Virus record (IMG/VR): IMGVR_UViG_3300049561_000013
Coordinates: 1-38,087 of that record
Length of the DNA: 38,087 nt
Reading direction: 5' to 3' (one strand)
From: a virus
Below, in pieces: positions 8,153 to 26,840 of the stretch. The notes beneath the pieces are model-generated. The model made no database searches. It was not told where the DNA came from and was given only the letters and a program-made list of their open reading frames with translations. How positions within the stretch are numbered: position 1 is the first letter of the stretch; each line of letters begins with the position of its first letter. The position numbers and the translations under genes were made by a program.

Positions 8153-8457
8153 CGTGTTGTGAATCTGGATGTTTTGAAAAACGAGATGCATCAAGGCAAT
8201 GGGTTTATTTGTGTAAGTTTCATGCGGATGAATATGACATTTACCCTAAAAATTCATATAGTTTGTTGGCTGCGATTGAGTGCCTGATGTATCGTTTTAG
8301 GGGCAGTGGCGACCTTGACGATGTTGAATTTGAGAAACTGAAAAGGTCATTACGGGACAGGATTAAAAATTGGAGTAGGGGCAGGGCAATAGACGAGCGG
8401 TATGATAATTGCGTCAAGGAGTTGTGTCGAATAGCGGTTGAGTGCAATCAACCATAA
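8149..8457 (+). CDS. Small Cys/His-rich protein of unknown function
   Basis: A 102-residue protein from ATG 8149, six bases after GGAGG, overlapping the upstream stop. The N-terminus has CCESGC and then CKFH about 18 residues later, a spacing compatible with a zinc-bound treble-clef or ribbon fold. The rest is helical and charged (VEFEKLKRSLRDRIKNWSRGRAIDERYDN). It lies between the replicative helicase and the primase, so a replication accessory role is possible. There is no direct evidence for one. Confidence 0.6.
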   Translation: MTCCESGCFEKRDASRQWVYLCKFHADEYDIYPKNSYSLLAAIECLMYRFRGSGDLDDVEFEKLKRSLRDRIKNWSRGRAIDERYDNCVKELCRIAVECNQP

Positions 8458-8469
8458 AGAGGTGTTGTC

Positions 8470-9465
8470 GTGAAATTCGACGTGGTTGAGTACTGTAGAG
8501 ATAACATAGATAATGTTAAATTGAATGCTACCAAGCAATTGGTGGGAGATTGTCCATGGTGTGAAAAATCTGGGCATTTTTACGTGGATTCTGAAACAGG
8601 TAATTATATTTGTTTTGCGTGCGATCAACGAGGTAATCGCCTTGTCGGGGTGGTTGCTCAAATAGAAGGCATTAGCGATGGTGAAGCACGCAGATACATC
8701 ATGAAACACAACGTGGAATTTAGGCGCAAAGAAACGCCACAGACGTTGTTGTCTAAGATTTCGTCGTTGGAGGAAAAAACAGAAATACATCCAACGGTGT
8801 GCGATTTACCGCCCGAGTTTGTTCCAGTTTATCAAGACGGTCGGTGGTCGATGCCTGTGTATTTAAAACAGAGAGGCATTAAACGGGATACCGCTAGAGA
8901 ATGGGGGCTTGGTTGGGCAAGGAGAGGCCGGTATGGTGGTAGGGTGATCATTCCGGTGATGTGTCCAGCCGGTCGTTCATTCACTGCTCGCGATGCAACG
9001 GGAGCACAGAGTCCAAGGTATTTGAATCCCAAGGGGATTGATCATGGTCGATTGTTGATTGGTTGGAATCATCATCCGATAGGTGGCGATGTGGTGTTGG
9101 TTGAAGGTCCGTTCGATGCGATTAAATTGTGGCAGCACGGATTTCCTGCTATGGCACTCATGGGCAAGGTGCTGCACATTGAACAATTTGTTATGTTGAT
9201 TGCTAAACCAACTGATGTTTCAATCATCATAATGCTTGATCCGGAAGAGATTGAAGCGCCATATAAAGTGGCAGAGCAATTGGTGTGCAGATTTAGAGAT
9301 GTTTCAATTGCTAAATTGCCCTTAGGGATGGATCCAGGGGATTCCACAAGAGAAGAAGCATTCAAAGCTATTGAGGACGCAGTGCCATATAACGGTAATA
9401 AAATGAGTAAAACGTTGGCTATGATTGGCAATAGTAGAAAAAGATTGAATAATTTTTATGCGTAA
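8470..9465 (+). CDS. DnaG-like DNA primase with zinc finger and Toprim domain
   Basis: A 331-residue primase starting at GTG 8470 behind AGAGGTG. Residues 22-48 form the zinc-binding domain (CPWC, then CFAC) that recognises template. The Toprim core has VLVEGPFDAIKLW (about 209-221) with its catalytic Glu, and IIIMLDPEEI (about 254-263) with the acidic metal-binding residues. It lacks the C-terminal helicase-interaction domain of bacterial DnaG, so it is a compact phage primase. It would synthesise RNA primers at the fork with the adjacent DnaB-like helicase. It closes the first replication operon; a promoter-containing gap follows. Confidence 0.88.
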   Translation: MKFDVVEYCRDNIDNVKLNATKQLVGDCPWCEKSGHFYVDSETGNYICFACDQRGNRLVGVVAQIEGISDGEARRYIMKHNVEFRRKETPQTLLSKISSLEEKTEIHPTVCDLPPEFVPVYQDGRWSMPVYLKQRGIKRDTAREWGLGWARRGRYGGRVIIPVMCPAGRSFTARDATGAQSPRYLNPKGIDHGRLLIGWNHHPIGGDVVLVEGPFDAIKLWQHGFPAMALMGKVLHIEQFVMLIAKPTDVSIIIMLDPEEIEAPYKVAEQLVCRFRDVSIAKLPLGMDPGDSTREEAFKAIEDAVPYNGNKMSKTLAMIGNSRKRLNNFYA

Positions 9466-14689: not shown

Positions 14690-15655
14690 ATGGTGAAAAG
14701 AGTCATAATAATTGGTGGTGGTATATCGGGTTTGGTGGTTGCTAACGTATTTTCCAAATATGCTTCGCACGTTGCCGTAGAAGTGTATGAATCTGGCGTT
14801 GTTGGCGGCGAATTTGTATTGGGTGGATTGAAATACATCCATCAATCCAGGGCGATGGAAGATTTTTTGGATGGTCTTGGGATTTATTGGTGCGATTATA
14901 GAGTAAGGGGGGGAATATTATTGAGAGGGGAGGTCAGAAAATATCCATTATTTTTATCGCAATTGAGTAAGGATGAGGCTATCCGTATTCAACGCGATCA
15001 TTATCGCAAGACTAGATTGATGGAATTAGGAGATTTTGATGATACTGCAATGAACGAACCAGCCAACGCTAAATCAAATAATGCATTGAATTGTGATTTT
15101 CAACGATTGGTTGATGTATTGGCATCTAATTGCAATATAATTAAAGCATCATTGATAAGGGTTATAAACGACAAGGTTTATTTGAGCAACAATACGGTCA
15201 GACAATTTGATTATTTGGTTCTGACCATACCGTTGTGGATTATAAAATTGGTGACCGATTACGAGATTGCATCTGCCATAGCGATGAAATTGAATATAGC
15301 GATAGTCAAAGGAACACGTAACACATACGCTGGTTGGGATTATGTGTATACTCCATACACTCCATCAAATTATATTCACCGAATATCGTATGGCGATGGT
15401 GGATATGCTGTTGAGGCTAATGGCAAATTGGATGAAGTTAGGTTATATTCTGATTTAAATTTTTTGTTTAAGAATGGATGGCGTTTGGAAGGGATAAAAA
15501 AAAATTTGAAAGGACATTTACTTCCATTGGATCAAAAAATAATTGTGCCATCGAATGTGGCATTATTGGGTAGATTCGCGGCATGGGAATCAAGGATGAC
15601 TGTTGATGTTACGCTTAATCGTGCTATCGAATTAGGGAAGCGATGGTTTGAATGA
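14690..15655 (+). CDS. FAD-dependent oxidoreductase (amine oxidase / UDP-galactopyranose mutase-like fold)
   Basis: A 321-residue flavoprotein. The N-terminus VKRVIIIGGGISGLVVANVF is the Rossmann dinucleotide-binding motif (GxGxxG at about residues 9-14) with the acidic end VEVYESG. The C-terminal signature VALLGRFAAWESRMTVDVTL followed by NRAIELG matches the second FAD-contact region of the amine oxidase, protoporphyrinogen oxidase and UDP-galactopyranose mutase group. It is shorter than most of these, so the substrate domain is reduced. It heads a block of nucleotide enzymes coupled by overlaps (ATGA at 15652). An oxidation step on a nucleotide is inferred from these neighbours. ATG 14690 or GTG 14693 may be the start. 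Confidence 0.75.
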   Translation: MVKRVIIIGGGISGLVVANVFSKYASHVAVEVYESGVVGGEFVLGGLKYIHQSRAMEDFLDGLGIYWCDYRVRGGILLRGEVRKYPLFLSQLSKDEAIRIQRDHYRKTRLMELGDFDDTAMNEPANAKSNNALNCDFQRLVDVLASNCNIIKASLIRVINDKVYLSNNTVRQFDYLVLTIPLWIIKLVTDYEIASAIAMKLNIAIVKGTRNTYAGWDYVYTPYTPSNYIHRISYGDGGYAVEANGKLDEVRLYSDLNFLFKNGWRLEGIKKNLKGHLLPLDQKIIVPSNVALLGRFAAWESRMTVDVTLNRAIELGKRWFE

Positions 15656-16560
15656 GCAGATTGAAGGAAATTTGGAAGCGTCAGTTGGAACAACAAATCG
15701 GATTCAATATGGATCCAGAAGCAATGACGAAGGTGCGTAAAATAGAGGTGGCCAAGGATTTGTTATTGGGATTGGATGAGGAGGTGGCTAAATTGGCAAA
15801 CTCTGCCACGCACTACAAGGTGCACATACTTAGGTCCACAGAGATTGAAAAAGCGAACGTTGCTGAGGCCGTGGTGGACGTATTGAAATATGCAATAGCC
15901 ATCGGGCAACTATATGGATTGACTGATACTGATTTGTACGATACGTTTCTGAACAAATCTACCGTGGTGGCCGATAAAGCGCGTGGTGAAAGGTTGTTGC
16001 TGGAACGAGATACGCGGGTGATATTATTTGATTTGGATAATGTTATTGCTGATATGTTAGATTGGGACATAGGATTGAAAAAAGCACGTGGGCAGGCGAT
16101 GGATGGCATGGGCGATGTAATGGTTACCATGCTGGAGTCGATGAAGGAAGAATTTTACAAAAGTAATGGATTTTTGAAATTATCTCCTGTAGATTCTGCT
16201 CCAGAAAGTATTCGATTGTTGAAAAGTTATGGTTGGAAAATTGTGATTATATCCGCTAGGCCAATATGGCAATATCGGCACATATATTCAGATACCGTGC
16301 AATGGTTGAATAAACATGGTATCGAATATGATTTGCTGTTATTCAACAAGGATAAGGCCGAAGCAATATATGAACACATCTTTCCAGCCATGCCATCATA
16401 TTTGGTGGAAGACAGAGAGAAACATGTTTTGGAAGTATCCGAATTGGGGATCAAGGTGTTGGTGATGGATTATTCATATAATGAGACAATCAAAGATACA
16501 AATTTGATTACACGCGTGTACGGTTGGAATGAAGTGATTAGTGTGATAGGAAGGCCATAA
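15652..16560 (+). CDS. Fusion of MazG/dUTPase-like NTP pyrophosphohydrolase with HAD 5'-nucleotidase
   Basis: A 302-residue two-domain protein. Residues 1-115 are all-alpha with KDLLLGLDEEVAKLAN and, about 30 residues later, NVAEAVVDVLKYA, the paired acidic helices of MazG/dimeric-dUTPase enzymes. Residues 123-300 form a HAD domain: nucleophile motif I FDLDNVIADM (Asp127 and Asp129), motif II IISAR, and the later acidic motif YLVEDREKHV. The HAD part resembles the 5'(3')-deoxyribonucleotidase group. The two activities in series would take a dNTP to dNMP and then to nucleoside, removing a chosen nucleotide from the pool. The substrate is not visible from the sequence. Confidence 0.7.
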   Translation: MSRLKEIWKRQLEQQIGFNMDPEAMTKVRKIEVAKDLLLGLDEEVAKLANSATHYKVHILRSTEIEKANVAEAVVDVLKYAIAIGQLYGLTDTDLYDTFLNKSTVVADKARGERLLLERDTRVILFDLDNVIADMLDWDIGLKKARGQAMDGMGDVMVTMLESMKEEFYKSNGFLKLSPVDSAPESIRLLKSYGWKIVIISARPIWQYRHIYSDTVQWLNKHGIEYDLLLFNKDKAEAIYEHIFPAMPSYLVEDREKHVLEVSELGIKVLVMDYSYNETIKDTNLITRVYGWNEVISVIGRP

Positions 16561-16564
16561 CGTC

Positions 16565-17527
16565 ATGGAACCTAAAGTAACATTGTTGAGTTGGACACAA
16601 CAGCCGCTGGAGACAGTTTATTCTGTGTGGCGTGCATCCAAAACAGAGAAGACATTGCTTTCACCTATGGAGGTTTCCACTATCATATCGAAATCTGAAA
16701 TTGAAGATACATTCAGGGCAATCATTGCTCAGAGAATACCGATTGGAGAACACATTAATTTTGTGTTTATGTTGGAAGGGGTGTCTGTTAGTTGGAGGGA
16801 GCAGGCAGTTAGGCATCGTATAGGTACACATCCATCGCCAGAAAGATTGGGTGCGGATATGACGGTGGATATAATGCCTAATTTACACAATAGTTCTTGG
16901 TGGTCCCAATCAATGCGTATTCAAAATATGGGTCGATTTTACGATGATGAGATGTTTCGTGTGCCTGATACATTGAAGGGGAAAGTAGTGCCGCGTGAAG
17001 CGCTAAATAATGGATACGATGCTACGCTGTTGTATTATCAAACTATGAGTCGTATCCAAGATGCTTACAATTCGTTGGTTGCTGCTGGAGTTCCCTTGGA
17101 AGACGCAAGGGAATTAATACCATTAGGAGCACAACATCGTATTAGTTGGAGTCTCAATATGAATTCACTCCAGCACATTCTGGGAGAAAGGGGTTGTTGG
17201 ATTCTTCAACTTGGTATATGGGGGCCTATCATTAAAGGCATGGTACGAGAGTTGGCTACAAAAATACATCCAATTTTTTATGAAATGATTTCGCCGCCGT
17301 GTATGGATGGTGATGAATTTAATGGGTGTGTATATAAAGAGGAATGCAAGAGGCGGATGAACAGCGAGGACAATCTTCCGCCGTGTCCCTTGTATGTGAA
17401 TTATCATTATTATCCACTTTTCAGTAACATTGAATTCCCTATGGTTGAAGAAATGAAAATACGGGCAGAGCAATACAGAAATTTTTGGGGTAGAAATCCT
17501 TATACAGGAAAGAGGAACGCGATATGA
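16565..17527 (+). CDS. ThyX-family flavin-dependent thymidylate synthase-like enzyme, divergent signature
   Basis: A 320-residue ThyX homologue. Family features are EHINFVFMLEGVS followed by REQAVRHR (about residues 59-85), and PLEDARELIPLGAQHRISWS then NMNSLQHILGERG, the nucleotide-binding helix region. The signature RHRxxSxNExSxR is strongly altered: at residues 83-96 it reads RHRIGTHPSPERLG, so the Asn-Glu pair, the second Ser and the final Arg are replaced. A C-terminal extension carries four cysteines (PPC, NGC, EEC, PPC; about residues 241-278), not part of the ordinary enzyme. ThyX methylates or hydroxymethylates position 5 of dUMP using folate and FAD. The changes suggest an altered substrate or chemistry. 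It overlaps the aminotransferase gene by ATGA. Confidence 0.75.
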   Translation: MEPKVTLLSWTQQPLETVYSVWRASKTEKTLLSPMEVSTIISKSEIEDTFRAIIAQRIPIGEHINFVFMLEGVSVSWREQAVRHRIGTHPSPERLGADMTVDIMPNLHNSSWWSQSMRIQNMGRFYDDEMFRVPDTLKGKVVPREALNNGYDATLLYYQTMSRIQDAYNSLVAAGVPLEDARELIPLGAQHRISWSLNMNSLQHILGERGCWILQLGIWGPIIKGMVRELATKIHPIFYEMISPPCMDGDEFNGCVYKEECKRRMNSEDNLPPCPLYVNYHYYPLFSNIEFPMVEEMKIRAEQYRNFWGRNPYTGKRNAI

Positions 17528-18687
17528 GTTTCTTGATGAATACAATAGAACCACGTGGTGGAATAGTGACTACAGGGGATTGCAAGGGAAGTTTTTTTGA
17601 AGGCGTCCACGAAGATGTTAGAATGTGGTATTTGGATTTTTTTACGGATTCTGGTACAGCATCATTAGGACACGGTTCTGTGTATCATTTGGATGCAAGA
17701 TCACGTGGTGCTGGCCAATCTCTTCATACGTTGAATCTTTTTGATAATGAATTGAGAAATCGGATTGCTGAGAAGGTGTGTCGTGTTGTAGGATATGATA
17801 AGATATTTTTTTGCAATAGTGGCACGGAAGCAATCGAAGCAGCAATCAAGTTGGCAAGAAAATATCAATATGATAAGCCATGGTTTGAATTGCAAGGTCG
17901 GTCAAAAGATCAAATCTGGTCAATAAAAGATGCATTTCATGGTAGGACTTATGGTGCTTTGGCAGCAAGTGATGGTCCAAATTATCATTTCGATGGGTTT
18001 GGACCATTTCCGGAAAGTTTTGTTTTTCAAGAAATTGATGAAATCAATTTTGATTTAGCAGCGGCAGTAATCATATCGCCTGTATTTGGTAATAATGATG
18101 TTCGCGTATATGATATTCGATGGTTAGAAAAATTGAAAATGATGTGCAACCAGAATGATACTTTGCTGATATTTGATGAGGTACAGACAGGTAGTGGCAG
18201 AACAGGCGATATCACATATGCAAAACTCATAGGAATACAACCAGATATAATGGCGTTGGCTAAAGGTTTTGGGATGGGATTTCCGGTTGCTGCAACTTTG
18301 GCTAATAATAGAGTTGCACAATCATTCACACCAGGCACACATTTTTCAACATTCGCTGGTAGTCCGCCTGCGTTGTATCACGTAGAAGTCATGTTTGATT
18401 GGTTGGATAATAATCTCTCTAAGGTGCGCAAGATGGGACAGAGGATGATGTATGATTTGGCGCAAAAGAATTGGGTGAAAACACCAAGGGGCATCGGAAT
18501 GTTTATTGCGTTTGAGATAAATGGGGATGCCAAAAAATTTTCAATGCGGTGTCTTGACAAGGGATTAGTGATTGGAGCATTCAGATCTAATCCGGTGAAA
18601 ATCACGCCGCCATTAAATTTGAGTGACGAAGAATGGGAAATTGGTTTGAGAATAATGGATAGAGTCGCCAAGGAGATGCAACTGTGA
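17524..18687 (+). CDS. Class III PLP-dependent aminotransferase
   Basis: A 387-residue enzyme close in length to acetylornithine and other class III aminotransferases. The visible path is FFCNSGTEAIEAAIKLAR (cofactor phosphate loop, about 98-115), KDAFHGRTYGAL (substrate and cofactor stacking, about 138-149), LLIFDEVQTGSGRTG (Asp218 contacts the pyridine nitrogen), and ALAKGFGMGFP with the Schiff-base Lys247. All catalytic residues seem present. Phages have no evident need for arginine or haem synthesis here. Sitting between a ThyX-like enzyme and a dNMP kinase, it may transaminate an aldehyde on a nucleotide. That substrate is inference. Confidence 0.85.
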   Translation: MSFLMNTIEPRGGIVTTGDCKGSFFEGVHEDVRMWYLDFFTDSGTASLGHGSVYHLDARSRGAGQSLHTLNLFDNELRNRIAEKVCRVVGYDKIFFCNSGTEAIEAAIKLARKYQYDKPWFELQGRSKDQIWSIKDAFHGRTYGALAASDGPNYHFDGFGPFPESFVFQEIDEINFDLAAAVIISPVFGNNDVRVYDIRWLEKLKMMCNQNDTLLIFDEVQTGSGRTGDITYAKLIGIQPDIMALAKGFGMGFPVAATLANNRVAQSFTPGTHFSTFAGSPPALYHVEVMFDWLDNNLSKVRKMGQRMMYDLAQKNWVKTPRGIGMFIAFEINGDAKKFSMRCLDKGLVIGAFRSNPVKITPPLNLSDEEWEIGLRIMDRVAKEMQL

Positions 18688-19269: not shown

Positions 19270-19659
19270 ATGGCGACTTTGGAAGAAATGAGAGAGCGAT
19301 TGTCTGTTGGTCTTTCGCTGTCTACAAAAAAGAAACACACCAAATGTGTTGATTGTGGTGGTAGGCATGCTGACATTGGAGATATATATTGCGAAACTTG
19401 TAAGGGCACAGGATATATTGAAATATCAGAAAAAATTAAATCGACCAAATTGGTTAAAAAATTTAAACAAATAAAAGATTGGAATAATCGTTACGCAATT
19501 AGCGCTGATGGTAGGGATTGTTTGATAAAATTTGGTAAATATAATGGTTGTACTCTTTCGCATATATATGGCGTAGATGATGGTTATTTGGTGTGGATGC
19601 TTAATGAAGATTTTCCAAACGATTTGAAGGATGTGTGTAGATTCGTGAGGGGAAAATGA
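19270..19659 (+). CDS. Zinc-ribbon protein with ExoX-type C-terminal domain
   Basis: A 129-residue protein. Residues 26-49 hold a DnaJ-like zinc ribbon (CVDCGG, then CETCKGTGY). Residues about 84-125 carry the pattern FGKYNGCTLSHIYGVDDGYL followed by WMLNEDF, which I recognise as the small domain found at the C-terminus of exonuclease X-like proteins and in phage proteins. A DNA-binding accessory role near the polymerase is reasonable. Its stop overlaps the polymerase start by ATGA, so the two are probably translated together. Confidence 0.65.
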   Translation: MATLEEMRERLSVGLSLSTKKKHTKCVDCGGRHADIGDIYCETCKGTGYIEISEKIKSTKLVKKFKQIKDWNNRYAISADGRDCLIKFGKYNGCTLSHIYGVDDGYLVWMLNEDFPNDLKDVCRFVRGK

Positions 19660-22600
19660 CCATCAAAGAAGATTTTGTGCATTTGCACGTGCATTCTGAT
19701 TATTCGCAGCTTGATGGTTGTGGCAAGGTGGCAGACTATGCCCAGAGAGCCAAAGATATGGGGCACCCGGCGATTGCTCTCACCGAGCATGGTACTATGA
19801 GGCAATATTATACACAGCAAGAGGCATGCCAAGAACGTGGTATAAAACCTATATATGGCATTGAGTTTTATGTTGCTAACGATATGCGCCGAAAAGGGTT
19901 GACTGACGATGAAAAAACAGAAATTACCAGAGATTTGAAAAGAGGTGAACGAAAGGGTGCAATCAAAGAATATGAAGAGCGTGAGGGTATTCGAGACAGA
20001 TGGCATCTGACCGTTTGGGCCCAGAACGATGTTGGCATGAAAAATCTTTTCAAATTGTCTACCAATGCATGGTTGGATGGATTTTATTACAAACCAAGGA
20101 TTGATGTCGAAGAACTTTTGAAATACAAAGATGGTTTGCTTGTGGCCACCGGGTGTCAATCGAGCATCATTATGGATCATGCTTGTTTGGGCAAGCGAAA
20201 ACGTGCGTTAAAAGAAGCGGACCGTTTATATGAGGCATTTGGAGATAAATTATGGCTTGAAGTGATGCCCCACGCTGGTAATGATCAGATATTGGCCAAT
20301 AAGTTTGCTATGGAACTTATGGGACGTTGGAAAAATATTGATATGGTGGCAACACAAGATGCTCATTATGTTGACGCTTCTGATTCTGAGGCACACGAAG
20401 TACTTCTGTGTATCGGCACAGGAGATAAAATGAAAAATCCCGATAGATTTCGATTTGGTGATGGCGAATTATATTTGAAATCACGAAAAGAAATGTTTCG
20501 TGATTTTACTAAAAACCATGATTATATGGGCAGCAAACTTATTAAACGTGCGTTGAATAATACATTAGTTGTGTCCAATATTATAGATGAAGACATTGTA
20601 AAAATAGATAGGTTTGCTTGTTTAATGCCACCGGTGGATGTGCCTAGTCGATATAACGGTGATGAATATGCTTACGTGAAAGCTATGTGCGTACACGGTT
20701 GGGAATGGCGAGAAATACCAAGTAGAGTGTCTACGTATGCAAAAAAACATGCGATAACATACAAAGAAGCGATGACTATTTACAAGTCTCGACTGAAACA
20801 CGAATTACAAGCAATTCAAAAACAAAAATTTATTACGTATTTTCTGTTGGTAAGGGATTTATATGATTGGGCGCGCAAACAGGATATTATGTGCGGTCCT
20901 GGACGCGGTTCAGCTGCCGGATCATTCGTGGCATATTTATTAGGTATCACATCTGTTGATCCTATTGAACACGCTTTGCTGTTTGAACGTTTTATTAATC
21001 CGGCACGTGTTGATATGCCCGATATAGATATGGATTTTGAGGATGTTCGAAGACAAGAGATCATCGAATATCTCAGACAAAAATACGGCGCAGATAGGGT
21101 GAGCCAGATAGCAACGGTTTCACAACTTAGTGGTAAGCAGTGTTTAAAAGACATATCAAGGGTGCTGGAAATACCGTATGCGGATGTGAATGAAGTAACC
21201 AACTCTATTATCGAACGGTCCAGCGGTGATGAGCGAGTCAGCCAGACAATAGTGGATTCGTTCAAAGACTTTAAAGTGTGTCGTGAATTCAATAAAAAAT
21301 ATCCCGATGTGTTGAAATATGCTCGGAAATTGGAAGGCATGCATAAGAATTTGGGTATTCATGCTGCTGGTGTGGTAACAAGTCCGGTGCCGTTGGTGGA
21401 TATTACGCCGCTGGAGGTCAGAAAGCACGCGGATGGCGATGTTGTTGTGACTGCTGTTGATATGAATGGGGTTCAAGCGCACGGTCTGCTCAAGATGGAT
21501 GTTTTGGGACTTAGAACGTTGGCGGTGTTGAAAGATGCTGTTAGGGCCATAAAAGAACGTCATAACGTGGTGATAGATTTAGAACGTTTGGATTTGAATT
21601 TGGCTGATATACTTCAAGCATTTACTGCCCATGATTATGTGGGCATTTTTCAATATGATTCACCGGGTGCGGATAAAATATGTACAGGCGTGTCGTTTGA
21701 TACATTTGAAGATGTGGCTGCTATGACTGCCTTGAATCGTCCAGGCACAGCAAGGAGTGGATTGGCCACCGAATATGTGGATCGTAAGAAGCACCCAGAA
21801 AAAAGAACACAAGGGCATTTTCATCCAAAGGTTTCAGCAATCACAGCGGATACCATGGGTGTCATTGTGTATCAAGAACATGTACAACGAATTTTTACAG
21901 ATATAGCTGGTTTCCCTCCAGGCACGGCAGATTCGTTGCGTAAGAAGATTGCAAAAAAATTTGGTGACGAGACAATCGGGAAAGAACGCGAGAATTTTAT
22001 TCGTGGGGCGCGTGAGCACTCTGGAATCGATGAAAAGATTGCCGGGAAAATAATGGATGCGATAACATTTTTTGGATGTTTGAAGTGCGATACTATGATT
22101 TCCACGCCAAGTGGTTTAAAAAGAATTGACCATTTGAGAGATGGCGACGCGGTATATTCATATTTAAATGGTAAATTGGTTGTTAATACGATAAAGTCTG
22201 TTGGTATTTCTGGTGTTAAAAAAATAGTCTTAATGGATACAACGTGCGGTACAGTATTTTCAACATTGGAGCATTGGTGGAGAAATGGTTTTGGTGAATA
22301 TATTCAAACTAAAAAGTTGAATATAGGAGATAAATTGGAGGTTGTAAATGTGTATAATGGAAGGATGTACAAGGGAAACATTGGCAAAAGGATTGTGCGG
22401 CCCGCACTACCAACAAAAATACAGAAAAGAAAAAACGGAATCAGGAAATCCTGTTGGTTCAATACACAGCAAAACAAGTATTCGTGGCAAAGGGTGGAAA
22501 AAAGGTCTGGACAAGACGCATCCATCAATCGCGGCGCAATCCGAAAAGATTTGTGGTTCAAAAAATCCTTCTTGGGCGGGTGGCCATATATCAGAATTCA

Positions 22601-24368
22601 GAAAGATAAGAAAAGAATTATTGAAAATAAACAAAACGTGCCAACATTGTGGTTGCAAACCATTGAAACACCAAGCGCCAAATATGAAATCTCTTCACGT
22701 CCACCATATAGACAGGAATCCAAAAAACAACGCATTGGAGAATTTAGAGGTGTTGTGCCAATCATGCCATTCGTCGGAACATATGGAAGACAAAATGAAA
22801 GCAGGTTTCACGCATCAGTAAAATCAATAACTTATGTTGGATTGGCAGAAACGTGGGATATGGAATGCGTTAATGAACCTAATAATTATGTGCTTGCTAA
22901 TGGTCTTATAAGTCACAATAGCTATGGATTTAATAAAAGTCACGCAACATCTTATGGTGTTATAGCATATTGGGGCATGTATTTGAAAGTGAATTATCCG
23001 TTGGAATTCTATTGGGCATTATTGAAAAACACACCAGAGAGGATACGCATCCAAGCATTCGCCAAGGACGCGAAGCGGCATGGCATAGAATTGTTGCCGC
23101 CTGATGTGTCTGTATCTAGGCGTGAGTTTGCTATAGACCCAGCAAGAAACGCAATTAGAGGCAGTCTGGTGGATATCAAGGGAGTTGGTGAAGCGGCATC
23201 GCAATCCATAATGGATAATCAACCATACACAGACTTATTTGATTTTTTAACGCGTGTAGAAAGAAGGAAAGTACATAGAGGAGTGACATTAGCATTGGCT
23301 AAATCTGGAGCGCTCAAATTCATACCAAATATAAAATGGTTCGTTGACAATATAGACTCCTTCTGGAAGGAATGGAACAAGGGTAAAGGCGGTGCTACGC
23401 GCGCAAAGGAGATGCTCAATGCATCCACGGAACAACCAGATTATGCTGATGAGGAAAGGCAACTCATAGCATCTCGTGTAAATCCATTGGCGTTTGGTAA
23501 GCATCCAATCGACGCTTACAAAGATTTCATAGATAAAAATGTGAAAGTGCCAATGGTGATGATGTCTGATGAATCTTTTTGGGAGGACAATAATGACAAA
23601 GGGGTATATATTTGTGGCGTTATACTGGAAGTGAAATACAATCAGATAGGCGATTTTCACACAGGAGAATTGCCCTCAGAAAGTGATCGAAAGAAAATGT
23701 TTTGGGGACGCCGATATGCCAACGTCAACGTGGAAGACGCAGGCGGTAAACAGAATCGTATCAAGTTTGACATAGATATTTTTGATGATATGAGAGAGTT
23801 GATTGATGCTGGTATCGGTACACCGGTAATTGTTCATGCCGTGCCCAACAAGCAATTTGAAAATTTGAGAGCACATTTCGCGATAGATTTGGAAGGATAC
23901 AGGAAAAAAATAGAATTTAATGAGAGATTGAATGTATGGGAAAGTATCATCGCAGGGCAACATCCAGCGCAAATGGTTATTTGGAAAGCAAAGGGTTTGA
24001 TGATTGGTGAACAAGTTGCTGAACAAAGAACTCAGAACATTCAATTTTTTGAGAATAAAACACATAAATTTACAGGCGTTGTGTTGCAAATTCGTTTCAA
24101 ATATGATAAAAAAGATAAGTTAATGGCATTTTTTAGTATGATTGATGCGGTGGGAAATTCCATTGATTGTATTTGTTTTGCTTCTAATTGGATTGCGGAG
24201 TTTGGTAATATAATCAAGGCAGGCAATTTATTATCAATTGAATTGTCTCGCCAAAAAGACATTAGAAATAAGCGTAAGTGGCAATATTTTTTTAATGGTG
24301 GGAATATTCATTGGTATAAAAATCATCCAAAAAATATTAATCTAGGTAAGGTAATAAGCAATAGATGA
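19656..24368 (+). CDS. dnaE: DNA polymerase III alpha subunit (DnaE-type) interrupted by an intein
   Basis: A 1570-residue precursor, about 1289 residues without its intein. The N-terminal PHP domain has HLHVHSDYSQLDG and ALTEHGTM (residues 8-50). The C-family polymerase core has CGPGRGSAAGSFVAYLLGIT (about 412-431), MPDIDMDFED with the catalytic aspartates (about 452-461) and LLKMDVLGLRTL (about 610-621). The intein occupies residues 808-1088 and splits FFG from SYGFNKSH, a highly conserved helix of the family. The last 480 residues include a helix-hairpin-helix-like GVGEAASQSIM region and an OB-fold-like region. It is the replicative polymerase of this phage; activity requires splicing. Confidence 0.93.
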   Translation: MTIKEDFVHLHVHSDYSQLDGCGKVADYAQRAKDMGHPAIALTEHGTMRQYYTQQEACQERGIKPIYGIEFYVANDMRRKGLTDDEKTEITRDLKRGERKGAIKEYEEREGIRDRWHLTVWAQNDVGMKNLFKLSTNAWLDGFYYKPRIDVEELLKYKDGLLVATGCQSSIIMDHACLGKRKRALKEADRLYEAFGDKLWLEVMPHAGNDQILANKFAMELMGRWKNIDMVATQDAHYVDASDSEAHEVLLCIGTGDKMKNPDRFRFGDGELYLKSRKEMFRDFTKNHDYMGSKLIKRALNNTLVVSNIIDEDIVKIDRFACLMPPVDVPSRYNGDEYAYVKAMCVHGWEWREIPSRVSTYAKKHAITYKEAMTIYKSRLKHELQAIQKQKFITYFLLVRDLYDWARKQDIMCGPGRGSAAGSFVAYLLGITSVDPIEHALLFERFINPARVDMPDIDMDFEDVRRQEIIEYLRQKYGADRVSQIATVSQLSGKQCLKDISRVLEIPYADVNEVTNSIIERSSGDERVSQTIVDSFKDFKVCREFNKKYPDVLKYARKLEGMHKNLGIHAAGVVTSPVPLVDITPLEVRKHADGDVVVTAVDMNGVQAHGLLKMDVLGLRTLAVLKDAVRAIKERHNVVIDLERLDLNLADILQAFTAHDYVGIFQYDSPGADKICTGVSFDTFEDVAAMTALNRPGTARSGLATEYVDRKKHPEKRTQGHFHPKVSAITADTMGVIVYQEHVQRIFTDIAGFPPGTADSLRKKIAKKFGDETIGKERENFIRGAREHSGIDEKIAGKIMDAITFFGCLKCDTMISTPSGLKRIDHLRDGDAVYSYLNGKLVVNTIKSVGISGVKKIVLMDTTCGTVFSTLEHWWRNGFGEYIQTKKLNIGDKLEVVNVYNGRMYKGNIGKRIVRPALPTKIQKRKNGIRKSCWFNTQQNKYSWQRVEKRSGQDASINRGAIRKDLWFKKSFLGGWPYIRIQKDKKRIIENKQNVPTLWLQTIETPSAKYEISSRPPYRQESKKQRIGEFRGVVPIMPFVGTYGRQNESRFHASVKSITYVGLAETWDMECVNEPNNYVLANGLISHNSYGFNKSHATSYGVIAYWGMYLKVNYPLEFYWALLKNTPERIRIQAFAKDAKRHGIELLPPDVSVSRREFAIDPARNAIRGSLVDIKGVGEAASQSIMDNQPYTDLFDFLTRVERRKVHRGVTLALAKSGALKFIPNIKWFVDNIDSFWKEWNKGKGGATRAKEMLNASTEQPDYADEERQLIASRVNPLAFGKHPIDAYKDFIDKNVKVPMVMMSDESFWEDNNDKGVYICGVILEVKYNQIGDFHTGELPSESDRKKMFWGRRYANVNVEDAGGKQNRIKFDIDIFDDMRELIDAGIGTPVIVHAVPNKQFENLRAHFAIDLEGYRKKIEFNERLNVWESIIAGQHPAQMVIWKAKGLMIGEQVAEQRTQNIQFFENKTHKFTGVVLQIRFKYDKKDKLMAFFSMIDAVGNSIDCICFASNWIAEFGNIIKAGNLLSIELSRQKDIRNKRKWQYFFNGGNIHWYKNHPKNINLGKVISNR
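22077..22919 (+). other. Intein in DnaE (residues 808-1088 of the precursor)
   Basis: Block A is CLKCDTMISTPSG with the nucleophile Cys808. Block B is VFSTLEHWWRNG with the Thr/His pair. Block F is VGLAETWDMECV and block G is NYVLANGLISHN ending in His-Asn, followed by Ser1089 as the +1 nucleophile. All splicing residues are present. The 281-residue length would normally include an endonuclease domain, but residues 898-1055 in this frame are a basic sequence with no motif. They are the out-of-frame reading of the HNH gene at 22348. The site lies two residues upstream of the place used by the cyanobacterial split DnaE intein, relative to FNKSH. Confidence 0.93.
22348..22821 (+). CDS. HNH homing endonuclease nested out of frame in the DnaE intein
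   Basis: A 157-residue protein in the +1 frame relative to dnaE. It has its own start: TTGGAGGT (22335-22342), six bases, then ATG 22348; an in-frame TAA (22345-22347) sits directly before the ATG. The N-terminal zinc-finger-like part is CIMEGCTRETLAKGLCGPHY, common in free-standing phage HNH proteins. The HNH core has CQHCGC (about residues 94-99), then LHVHHIDRNPKNNALENLEV and LCQSCH. The gene lies exactly between intein splicing blocks B and F; its TAA (22819-22821) is just before block F. It would cut intein-free dnaE alleles and drive homing. Confidence 0.88.
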   Translation: MCIMEGCTRETLAKGLCGPHYQQKYRKEKTESGNPVGSIHSKTSIRGKGWKKGLDKTHPSIAAQSEKICGSKNPSWAGGHISEFRKIRKELLKINKTCQHCGCKPLKHQAPNMKSLHVHHIDRNPKNNALENLEVLCQSCHSSEHMEDKMKAGFTHQ

Positions 24369-25499: not shown

Positions 25500-26840
25500 A
25501 TGGCAGTTAATGCTAAAAAAATGAAAAAAGGTTATGAAAAACATCAAAGAAATGGTGATTTTTGGACGCCACCAATCGGAGATACGTTGGTGTATATTCA
25601 CGGGCAATGCCGTGAAGACGACAAGTATGAACCCACAGAAGGAGTGAATTATGTCGAGGTGGCAATTCATTATGGTGTTGGTCCCAACAAGGCTATGGTG
25701 GTTTCGCTTGATCCGGCGGCAAATCCTATCGTGGAGCATCCGTTCGTGAAGTCATTTCTTAAAAAAAAGAAAAACAAATTCAAAATGCCCTCAAAGTGTC
25801 CAATGGCATTGGCAATGGAGAATGGTACCCTATCTGAGACTGAAGCTGACGAATCGCGACGTCTTCAGCGTTTTATGTGGGGAGTAACTCCAATCAAATA
25901 TCGTTCAGATAAAGGGGATTGGCAGAAATTGCCTCCGCATCCATCGGTGATGGTGGTCGGCAAGACGATATTCGATGGTATCATGGAATTGTTTATTGAT
26001 GTTGGTGATATCACAGATGTGAATGGAGCGGTGCTTGCTCTCATCCACAGAGAAGGCAAAAACAAGAACGATACTCGGTATAAAATTACAGCAGATATGG
26101 TCACTCTTCGCAAGCCAATTAAACTTGGTTCGGAATTGCAAAATAAAATCGTTGAGGCCATGAAAGATGGCGGGGATTGTGATTTGTTCAAGGTTGTTGC
26201 GAATATGATCAAAACTCCAGAAGAAATTGAGGCATTGCTCAACAACGTCAAAACTGAAGATGATACAGATGGTGATTATGGCGATGATACCGATACCGAT
26301 GACGATACCGATACCGATACCGATGACGATGCCGATACCGATGATGACGATGATTCCGATGCTGATGCCGATGCCGATGACGATGCCGATACCGACGATG
26401 ACGATGACGACGATGACGATGCCGATACCGATGATGACGATACACTTATTATTGATGGTCGCGACGACGATGACGACGATGACGATGATGACGACGATGA
26501 CGATGATGACGATGATGACGATGATGACGATGATGACGATGATGACGCCAAAACCAAGAAAAAAAGCACGCCACCAATCGCCAAGAAGACCAAAGAAATT
26601 AAGGTTGATAAGCCGTTTAAAGTTGCCAAGGAGACCAAGGAAATCAAGATTGATAAGCCAATTAAAGTCACTAAGGAAACCAAGAATCCCAAGGCAAATA
26701 AGGCAACCAAACAGGAGGATGATGATGAACTCGGATTGGATGCTTTGGATAGGGAGTTGGATAGAGTTTCCAAAGGCAAGCCATCCAATATCGTATCTAA
26801 CAAAACCGTTAAAATTGAGTCCAAAAAGAAAAAAGGTTAG
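25500..26840 (+). CDS. Putative single-stranded DNA-binding protein with poly-Asp and Lys-rich tails
   Basis: A 446-residue protein behind AAGGAG. Residues 1-250 are globular: FWTPPIGDTLVYIHGQCRED and VNYVEVAIHYGVGPNKAMVV suggest an OB-like beta core as in phage SSB families that begin with an 'FW.P..G' motif. Residues 262-349 are extremely acidic (DTD, DDD and DAD repeats), ending in 28 consecutive aspartates (322-349). A Lys-rich repeat region follows (KEIKVDKPFKVAKETKEIKI and similar). SSBs use acidic tails to recruit partners, but here the tail is large and internal. Position before recA and after a possible mediator fits the role. Confidence 0.55.
   Translation: MAVNAKKMKKGYEKHQRNGDFWTPPIGDTLVYIHGQCREDDKYEPTEGVNYVEVAIHYGVGPNKAMVVSLDPAANPIVEHPFVKSFLKKKKNKFKMPSKCPMALAMENGTLSETEADESRRLQRFMWGVTPIKYRSDKGDWQKLPPHPSVMVVGKTIFDGIMELFIDVGDITDVNGAVLALIHREGKNKNDTRYKITADMVTLRKPIKLGSELQNKIVEAMKDGGDCDLFKVVANMIKTPEEIEALLNNVKTEDDTDGDYGDDTDTDDDTDTDTDDDADTDDDDDSDADADADDDADTDDDDDDDDDADTDDDDTLIIDGRDDDDDDDDDDDDDDDDDDDDDDDDDDDDAKTKKKSTPPIAKKTKEIKVDKPFKVAKETKEIKIDKPIKVTKETKNPKANKATKQEDDDELGLDALDRELDRVSKGKPSNIVSNKTVKIESKKKKG
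26283..26546 (+). repeat. Acidic low-complexity repeats (GATACC/GATGAC) in the SSB-like gene
   Basis: The coding strand is a chain of GAT, GAC, ACC and GCC codons in hexamer units such as GATACC, GATGAC and GATGCC. It ends in 84 bases of pure GAT/GAC codons (26463-26546) encoding 28 Asp. The alternating use of GAT and GAC shows expansion followed by drift. The region produces long but meaningless open frames on both strands. Confidence 0.95.

Follow-up and report, generated by a model that had tools for sequence, protein, structure and literature searches.

The window, by which we mean the whole stretch of 38,087 nucleotides of viral DNA analyzed here, encodes a phage DNA polymerase III alpha subunit (DnaE) in an open reading frame that matches Pfam DNA_pol3_alpha (1.7e-83) as well as PHP, finger and HHH_6 models, the match to DNA polymerase III alpha spanning the PHP, NTPase, finger and HHH domains. 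Within this frame lies an intein, and within the intein, in the +1 frame relative to dnaE, lies a gene for an HNH endonuclease (Table 1). The coordinates of both elements in the initial annotation, made from the sequence alone, all hold, as does its claim that the dnaE frame runs open through them. Metabolic-looking genes (14690-18687; by eye amine-oxidase/mutase-like, thyX-like and class III aminotransferase-like) adjoin the replication genes, and the interval between dnaE and a recA-like gene holds an ORF (25500-26840) in which Asp predominates over a very long tract (poly-D, DTDDDDD repeats).

Table 1. Features of the interrupted dnaE gene, in window coordinates.
Feature	Position	Strand	Basis or remark
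dnaE, phage DNA polymerase III alpha ORF	19656..24368	+	Open across the intein and HNH region
Intein, 281 codons in the dnaE frame, C1 to HN, +1 Ser	22077..22919	+	TIGR01443; AlphaFold2 (AF2) Hint fold
Intein N-terminal splicing region, blocks A and B, TLEH box	22077..22355	+	Profile of related inteins, the window itself included, 1.3e-20; AF2 pLDDT ~97
Shine-Dalgarno of the HNH gene, GGAGGT	22337..22342	+	Sequence
HNH endonuclease gene, 157 aa, +1 frame relative to dnaE	22348..22821	+	Pfam, PHROG, motif
HNH gene as read in the intein frame: linker, unconstrained and predicted to be disordered	22359..22790	+	AF2; identity null
Intein C-terminal splicing region, blocks F and G, plus the +1 extein Ser	22803..22922	+	Profile 2.6e-12; TIGR01443

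The intein is inserted at FFG^SYGFNKSH, a conserved polymerase motif that intein-free dnaE relatives read unbroken as FFGSYGFNK. It begins with Cys1, ends with Asn281 and is followed by Ser at the +1 position, Cys1 and Asn281 being invariant in 23 aligned inteins, and its block B holds TLEH, a TxxH box whose His is nearly invariant in the same alignment. Blocks F and G read TWDMECVNEPNNYVLANGLISHN, and TIGR01443 (intein_Cterm) matches above its cut-off; a search with TIGR01445 did not detect the N-terminal region of the intein, and the intein matches from a PDB search by sequence were weak. AlphaFold2 placed residues 1-91 and 242-281 in a Hint domain at pLDDT ~97 and left residues 95-185, 188-197 and 226-238 below 50, and a fold search with this model was decisive, its top PDB matches being inteins. 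The splicing domain is predicted from the model to fold around a disordered linker.

The HNH gene has its own start and its own stop, and is not an in-frame part of the intein. The strong Shine-Dalgarno and the in-frame stop that had been described ahead of its ATG are both present: GGAGG ends six bases upstream of the ATG, and TAA (22345-22347) lies immediately 5' of it. The protein matches Pfam HNH above the cut-off (6.4e-6) and PHROG HNH families down to 1.2e-15, the motif residues H119/H120, N132 and H141 are conserved in alignments, and the zinc Cys pairs are invariant in the four dnaE HNHs. AlphaFold2 folds its core well and its N-terminal part with low confidence; Foldseek with this model found no significant match in the PDB.

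The scan of viral contigs provided 18 dnaE relatives that cover the insertion site. Four of them (L002, L003, L007 and L013) carry an intein at the window's position, with an HNH ORF in the +1 frame and an open intein frame; the extein rows of L012 and L014 are identical to those of L002 and L003, respectively. The others are without an intein, apart from L005, and the empty FFG^SYGFNKSH allele is found in L001, L004, L006, L008, L010, L015 and others. The dnaE tree pairs the window with the empty L001/L008 and L013 with the empty L015 as sisters, both with full support, and occupancy of the site is patchy. The dnaE intein of L005 (~8420-9330) has an in-frame HNH and sits at the neighboring site FNK^SHAT; its N-terminus is atypical, apparently with Thr in place of Cys/Ser. 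An in-frame HNH in homologues had been named as evidence that would count against the arrangement; all of the close homologues of the window's HNH (those of L003, L007 and L013, 41-51% identical to it) are out of frame, and the HNH of L002 is a different one.

The HNHs of L002 and L003 belong to different families, and in both inteins (8434-9420 and 8434-9312, respectively) the HNH gene lies right after the first intein codons and before the remaining N-terminal splicing region, outside the canonical place between blocks B and F. Beyer et al. (PMC6801210), who treat the position of the endonuclease as fixed, describe every intein endonuclease as occupying a single conserved site, and remark that free-standing endonucleases invading at random would be expected to yield other positions. 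L002 and L003 look like cases of such invasion at another position.

No match came from scanning viral contigs with the single HNH sequence, nor from searching annotated phages at the nucleotide level with the window. Scanning instead with an alignment of the four dnaE HNHs, by HNH similarity and with nesting not a criterion, yielded 79 viral loci, to which phage records found by tblastn were added. Of the 78 distinct HNHs, 48 lie entirely within a longer ORF in a different frame, 28 are not nested (free-standing or in fractured genes) and 2 are in frame, proportions that are no census since the sample was seeded by one HNH group. The out-of-frame arrangement reported initially is real, and it is one member of a widespread class, not unique: the nested inteins are the window's, those of the four viral dnaE relatives above and a further 42 distinct ones. 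In-frame HNH inteins were seen only in more distant loci (L091, L108, and L005 with its other dnaE position).

Canonical intein blocks F and G stand at the end of 47 of the 48 nested hosts, and both intein halves are matched in one open frame in 45 of the 48 by profiles built partly from those same sequences. Independent support comes from the NCBIfam intein_Nterm and intein_Cterm models, at least one of which matches most of a ten-member subset; within that subset, L003 and L002 match only other intein-containing models. The hosts are mainly terminase large subunit genes (terL), together with DNA polymerases, dnaE and an aminotransferase. Nesting is seen in five named phage genomes (Acinetobacter phage Highwayman, Tetrasphaera phage TJE1, Gordonia phage Clown, Synechococcus phage S-EIVl and Rhodobacteraceae phage MD07), and for the terL genes of TJE1 and Highwayman the annotation lists the terminase CDS alone. 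Two MAG contigs assigned to Nitrospiraceae (L124) and Patescibacteria (L126) also have terL inteins with an out-of-frame HNH, and are probably prophage or phage contigs.

That an intein frame should stay open through the whole HNH gene had been judged unlikely by chance, with an estimate of ~0.0005; the judgment was sound and the estimate too mild. Under a null model in which the HNH protein is fixed and synonymous codons are drawn from local usage, ~12 intein-frame stops are expected in the window and 0 are present (P(none) = 1.9e-8). An intein-frame stop in the window's phase requires a T-ending HNH codon before AA, AG or GA, and T-ending codons occur at 0 of the 35 sites where they would make a stop, versus 32 of 76 sites elsewhere. 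For the 48 distinct nested HNHs (47 of them in inteins) ~330 host-frame stops are expected and none is observed, with a pooled log10 P(open) of -183, while the 28 non-nested relatives have 719 stops against 668 expected and not one of them is open. An open frame by chance is rejected on both the window's own probability and the pooled one.

The nested HNHs fall into two phases, 33 in the first and 15, the window's among them, in the second. Wobble T in the second phase is found at 0 of 642 critical sites versus 33% elsewhere. In the first phase ATG followed by A makes a host-frame stop from which Met offers no synonymous escape, and Met followed by an A-starting codon occurs in 0 of 53 instances in nested HNHs versus 22 of 64 in non-nested ones; the intein frame therefore constrains even the HNH protein.

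A comparison of selection in the two frames, proposed in the initial annotation, separated them: nonsynonymous changes amount to 0.72 of expectation in the HNH frame and 1.04 in the host frame, over 12 pairs of relatives that are not all independent. Within the dnaE group, identity is 40-52% in the HNH frame and 22-30% in the linker frame, the latter equal to a null derived from the HNH frame alone. Selection on the linker sequence itself is seen neither in the substitution ratios nor in identity relative to this null. The HNH frame is under purifying selection and the linker frame is free to vary barring stops; taken with the missing stops, this means that selection acts on the protein in one frame and on openness in the other. 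The original reading of the locus, as a contiguous intein for which an independent HNH gene serves as linker sequence, is supported by the selection on the HNH frame and by the predicted disorder of the linker, and the uncoupling of endonuclease supply from splicing that had been put forward with it is plausible.

In textbook inteins the endonuclease is fused in frame. The window's intein resembles canonical inteins (in-frame LAGLIDADG or HNH) in its Hint domain, in having the endonuclease placed between blocks B and F, and in being inserted precisely into a conserved motif with patchy occupancy. It differs from them in that the endonuclease is a complete ORF in a different frame, with a start and a stop of its own, while the intein frame supplies only a linker. 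It would have in common with group I introns (e.g. that of I-HmuI) an endonuclease translated independently of the host gene, from its own start inside a self-removing element, but the window's element would be removed at the protein level, and its host frame must stay open. An Rfam search at E up to 1 gave no intron match, and an intron reading was rejected.

ShiLan, an out-of-frame HNH in a phage methylase without a splicing domain (Arsenault et al. 2025, PMC11855218), likewise shows an HNH hidden in another frame, an open host frame and a patchy distribution. It has no detectable ribosome binding site, however, whereas the window's HNH is preceded by a Shine-Dalgarno and lies in an intact intein with its splicing domain. 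Two loci in our sample involve cytosine methyltransferase ORFs: L031 (2701-4413) has an out-of-frame HNH without intein motifs and is ShiLan-like, and L121 (CUB-EPI_14, 135-1940) spans an HNH. We found no out-of-frame endonuclease in a spliceable intein in the open literature searched; a 2025 preprint by Gosselin et al. (10.1101/2025.01.02.630785), on actinobacteriophage inteins and 'Non-Canonical Architecture', may be prior art. A nested endonuclease seems to be undescribed for real inteins, the sole precedent found, ShiLan, being one that does not splice.

Free-standing genes for related HNHs adjoin terL in several phages. In Vibrio phages 1.238.A and 1.245.O and in Lactobacillus phage CL2, the terL intein halves lie on separate ORFs with the HNH between them, and the link to fractured genes drawn in the first reading is borne out by this split-intein state. 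The Vibrio terL genes (L107, NC_055735.1, 2124-3374; L120, NC_055736.1) consist of an intein N-half, an out-of-frame HNH gene and a separate ORF, named 'hedgehog/hint domain protein', that holds the intein C-half and the TerL C-terminus; the arrangement in CL2 (L114) looks similar. Fractured genes, which Dassa et al. are said to have described in 2009, reportedly have split inteins with a free-standing endonuclease between the halves. Such a gene between intein halves is common to them and to the window; L107, L114 and L120 are fractured in this sense, and the window differs from them in having its halves in a single open frame, so that splicing would be in cis. These states suggest a path from a free-standing HNH through a nested out-of-frame intein to a fractured split intein, in a direction that we infer.

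We consider it highly probable that the window holds a contiguous, cis-splicing intein together with an independently translated, overlapping gene for an HNH homing endonuclease. A ribosome on dnaE would read across the HNH gene in the dnaE frame to give a single precursor, in which the intein halves would fold together with the ~145 intervening residues as a disordered linker, and the intein would splice itself out. Other ribosomes would initiate internally at the HNH Shine-Dalgarno and ATG to give free HNH endonuclease, which presumably cuts intein-free dnaE alleles, and the element would thereby spread by homing. Cleavage of the uninterrupted allele and homing are inferred from the patchy distribution, and the HNH could serve a role other than homing. 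A Shine-Dalgarno of at least 5 bases precedes 9 of 41 HNH starts (22%, first-ATG rule) versus 14 of 458 control start codons (3%); given that a strong one is limited to these 9, internal initiation may differ between phages, and the signals upstream of the start support it for the window and not uniformly across relatives.

Compensating indels flanking an ordinary in-frame HNH intein could have produced the appearance of two frames, and the window is covered by a single assembly. Yet the arrangement recurs in 47 distinct inteins, named phage genomes included, an HNH-frame stop directly precedes the HNH ATG, and the avoidance of intein-frame stops by HNH wobble usage at each critical site is something that indels could not yield; an assembly or sequencing artefact is extremely improbable. 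It is also very unlikely that the HNH is a ShiLan-type insert, kept in the protein without splicing. The principle, an HNH concealed in a host gene whose frame stays open, is the same, and L031 looks of that kind, but the dnaE insert has Cys1, blocks B and F, HN, the +1 Ser, an intein_Cterm match above the cut-off, a Hint fold at pLDDT ~97 and a site in a conserved polymerase motif, whereas ShiLan has no detectable splicing domain.

Programmed ribosomal frameshifting could make the HNH as a fusion to the intein with no independent initiation, given that a +1 shift near the junction would link the frames and that some relatives are without a clear Shine-Dalgarno. In the window and most relatives, however, an HNH-frame stop lies 0-10 codons upstream of the first ATG, so that the shift would have to fall downstream of the start codon. 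The Shine-Dalgarno of the window is strong, an unsystematic look noticed no slippery site, and we give this possibility very little credence. Homing-cycle theory holds that the endonuclease decays once an element is fixed, and would thus allow the HNH frame to be a decaying remnant in an intein that alone matters. Against decay, the HNH motif residues are kept among relatives and purifying selection acts on the HNH frame, which makes such a remnant very unlikely. As for a contiguous intein with an independently translated HNH gene as a general condition, we judge it at somewhat better than even chance that overlapping genes of this kind are a common source of homing endonuclease for phage inteins, that free-standing HNH genes enter mini-inteins in another frame and at differing positions of the Hint domain, that two-frame selection then purges every intein-frame stop, and that some descendants gain stops and become split inteins in fractured genes; the nested state would then be the missing step linking free-standing homing endonucleases, mini-inteins and split inteins.

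A separate overlapping gene offers a concrete path along which a free-standing endonuclease can give rise to a mobile intein, and this in turn to a split intein, and nesting explains how an intein can gain an endonuclease before any fold-compatible fusion evolves. It also means that the terminase and polymerase genes of phages conceal many endonuclease genes that annotation has missed. The nested inteins provide, moreover, a natural gene overlap with a clear and testable division between its frames, one selected for amino acids and the other for the absence of stops only.
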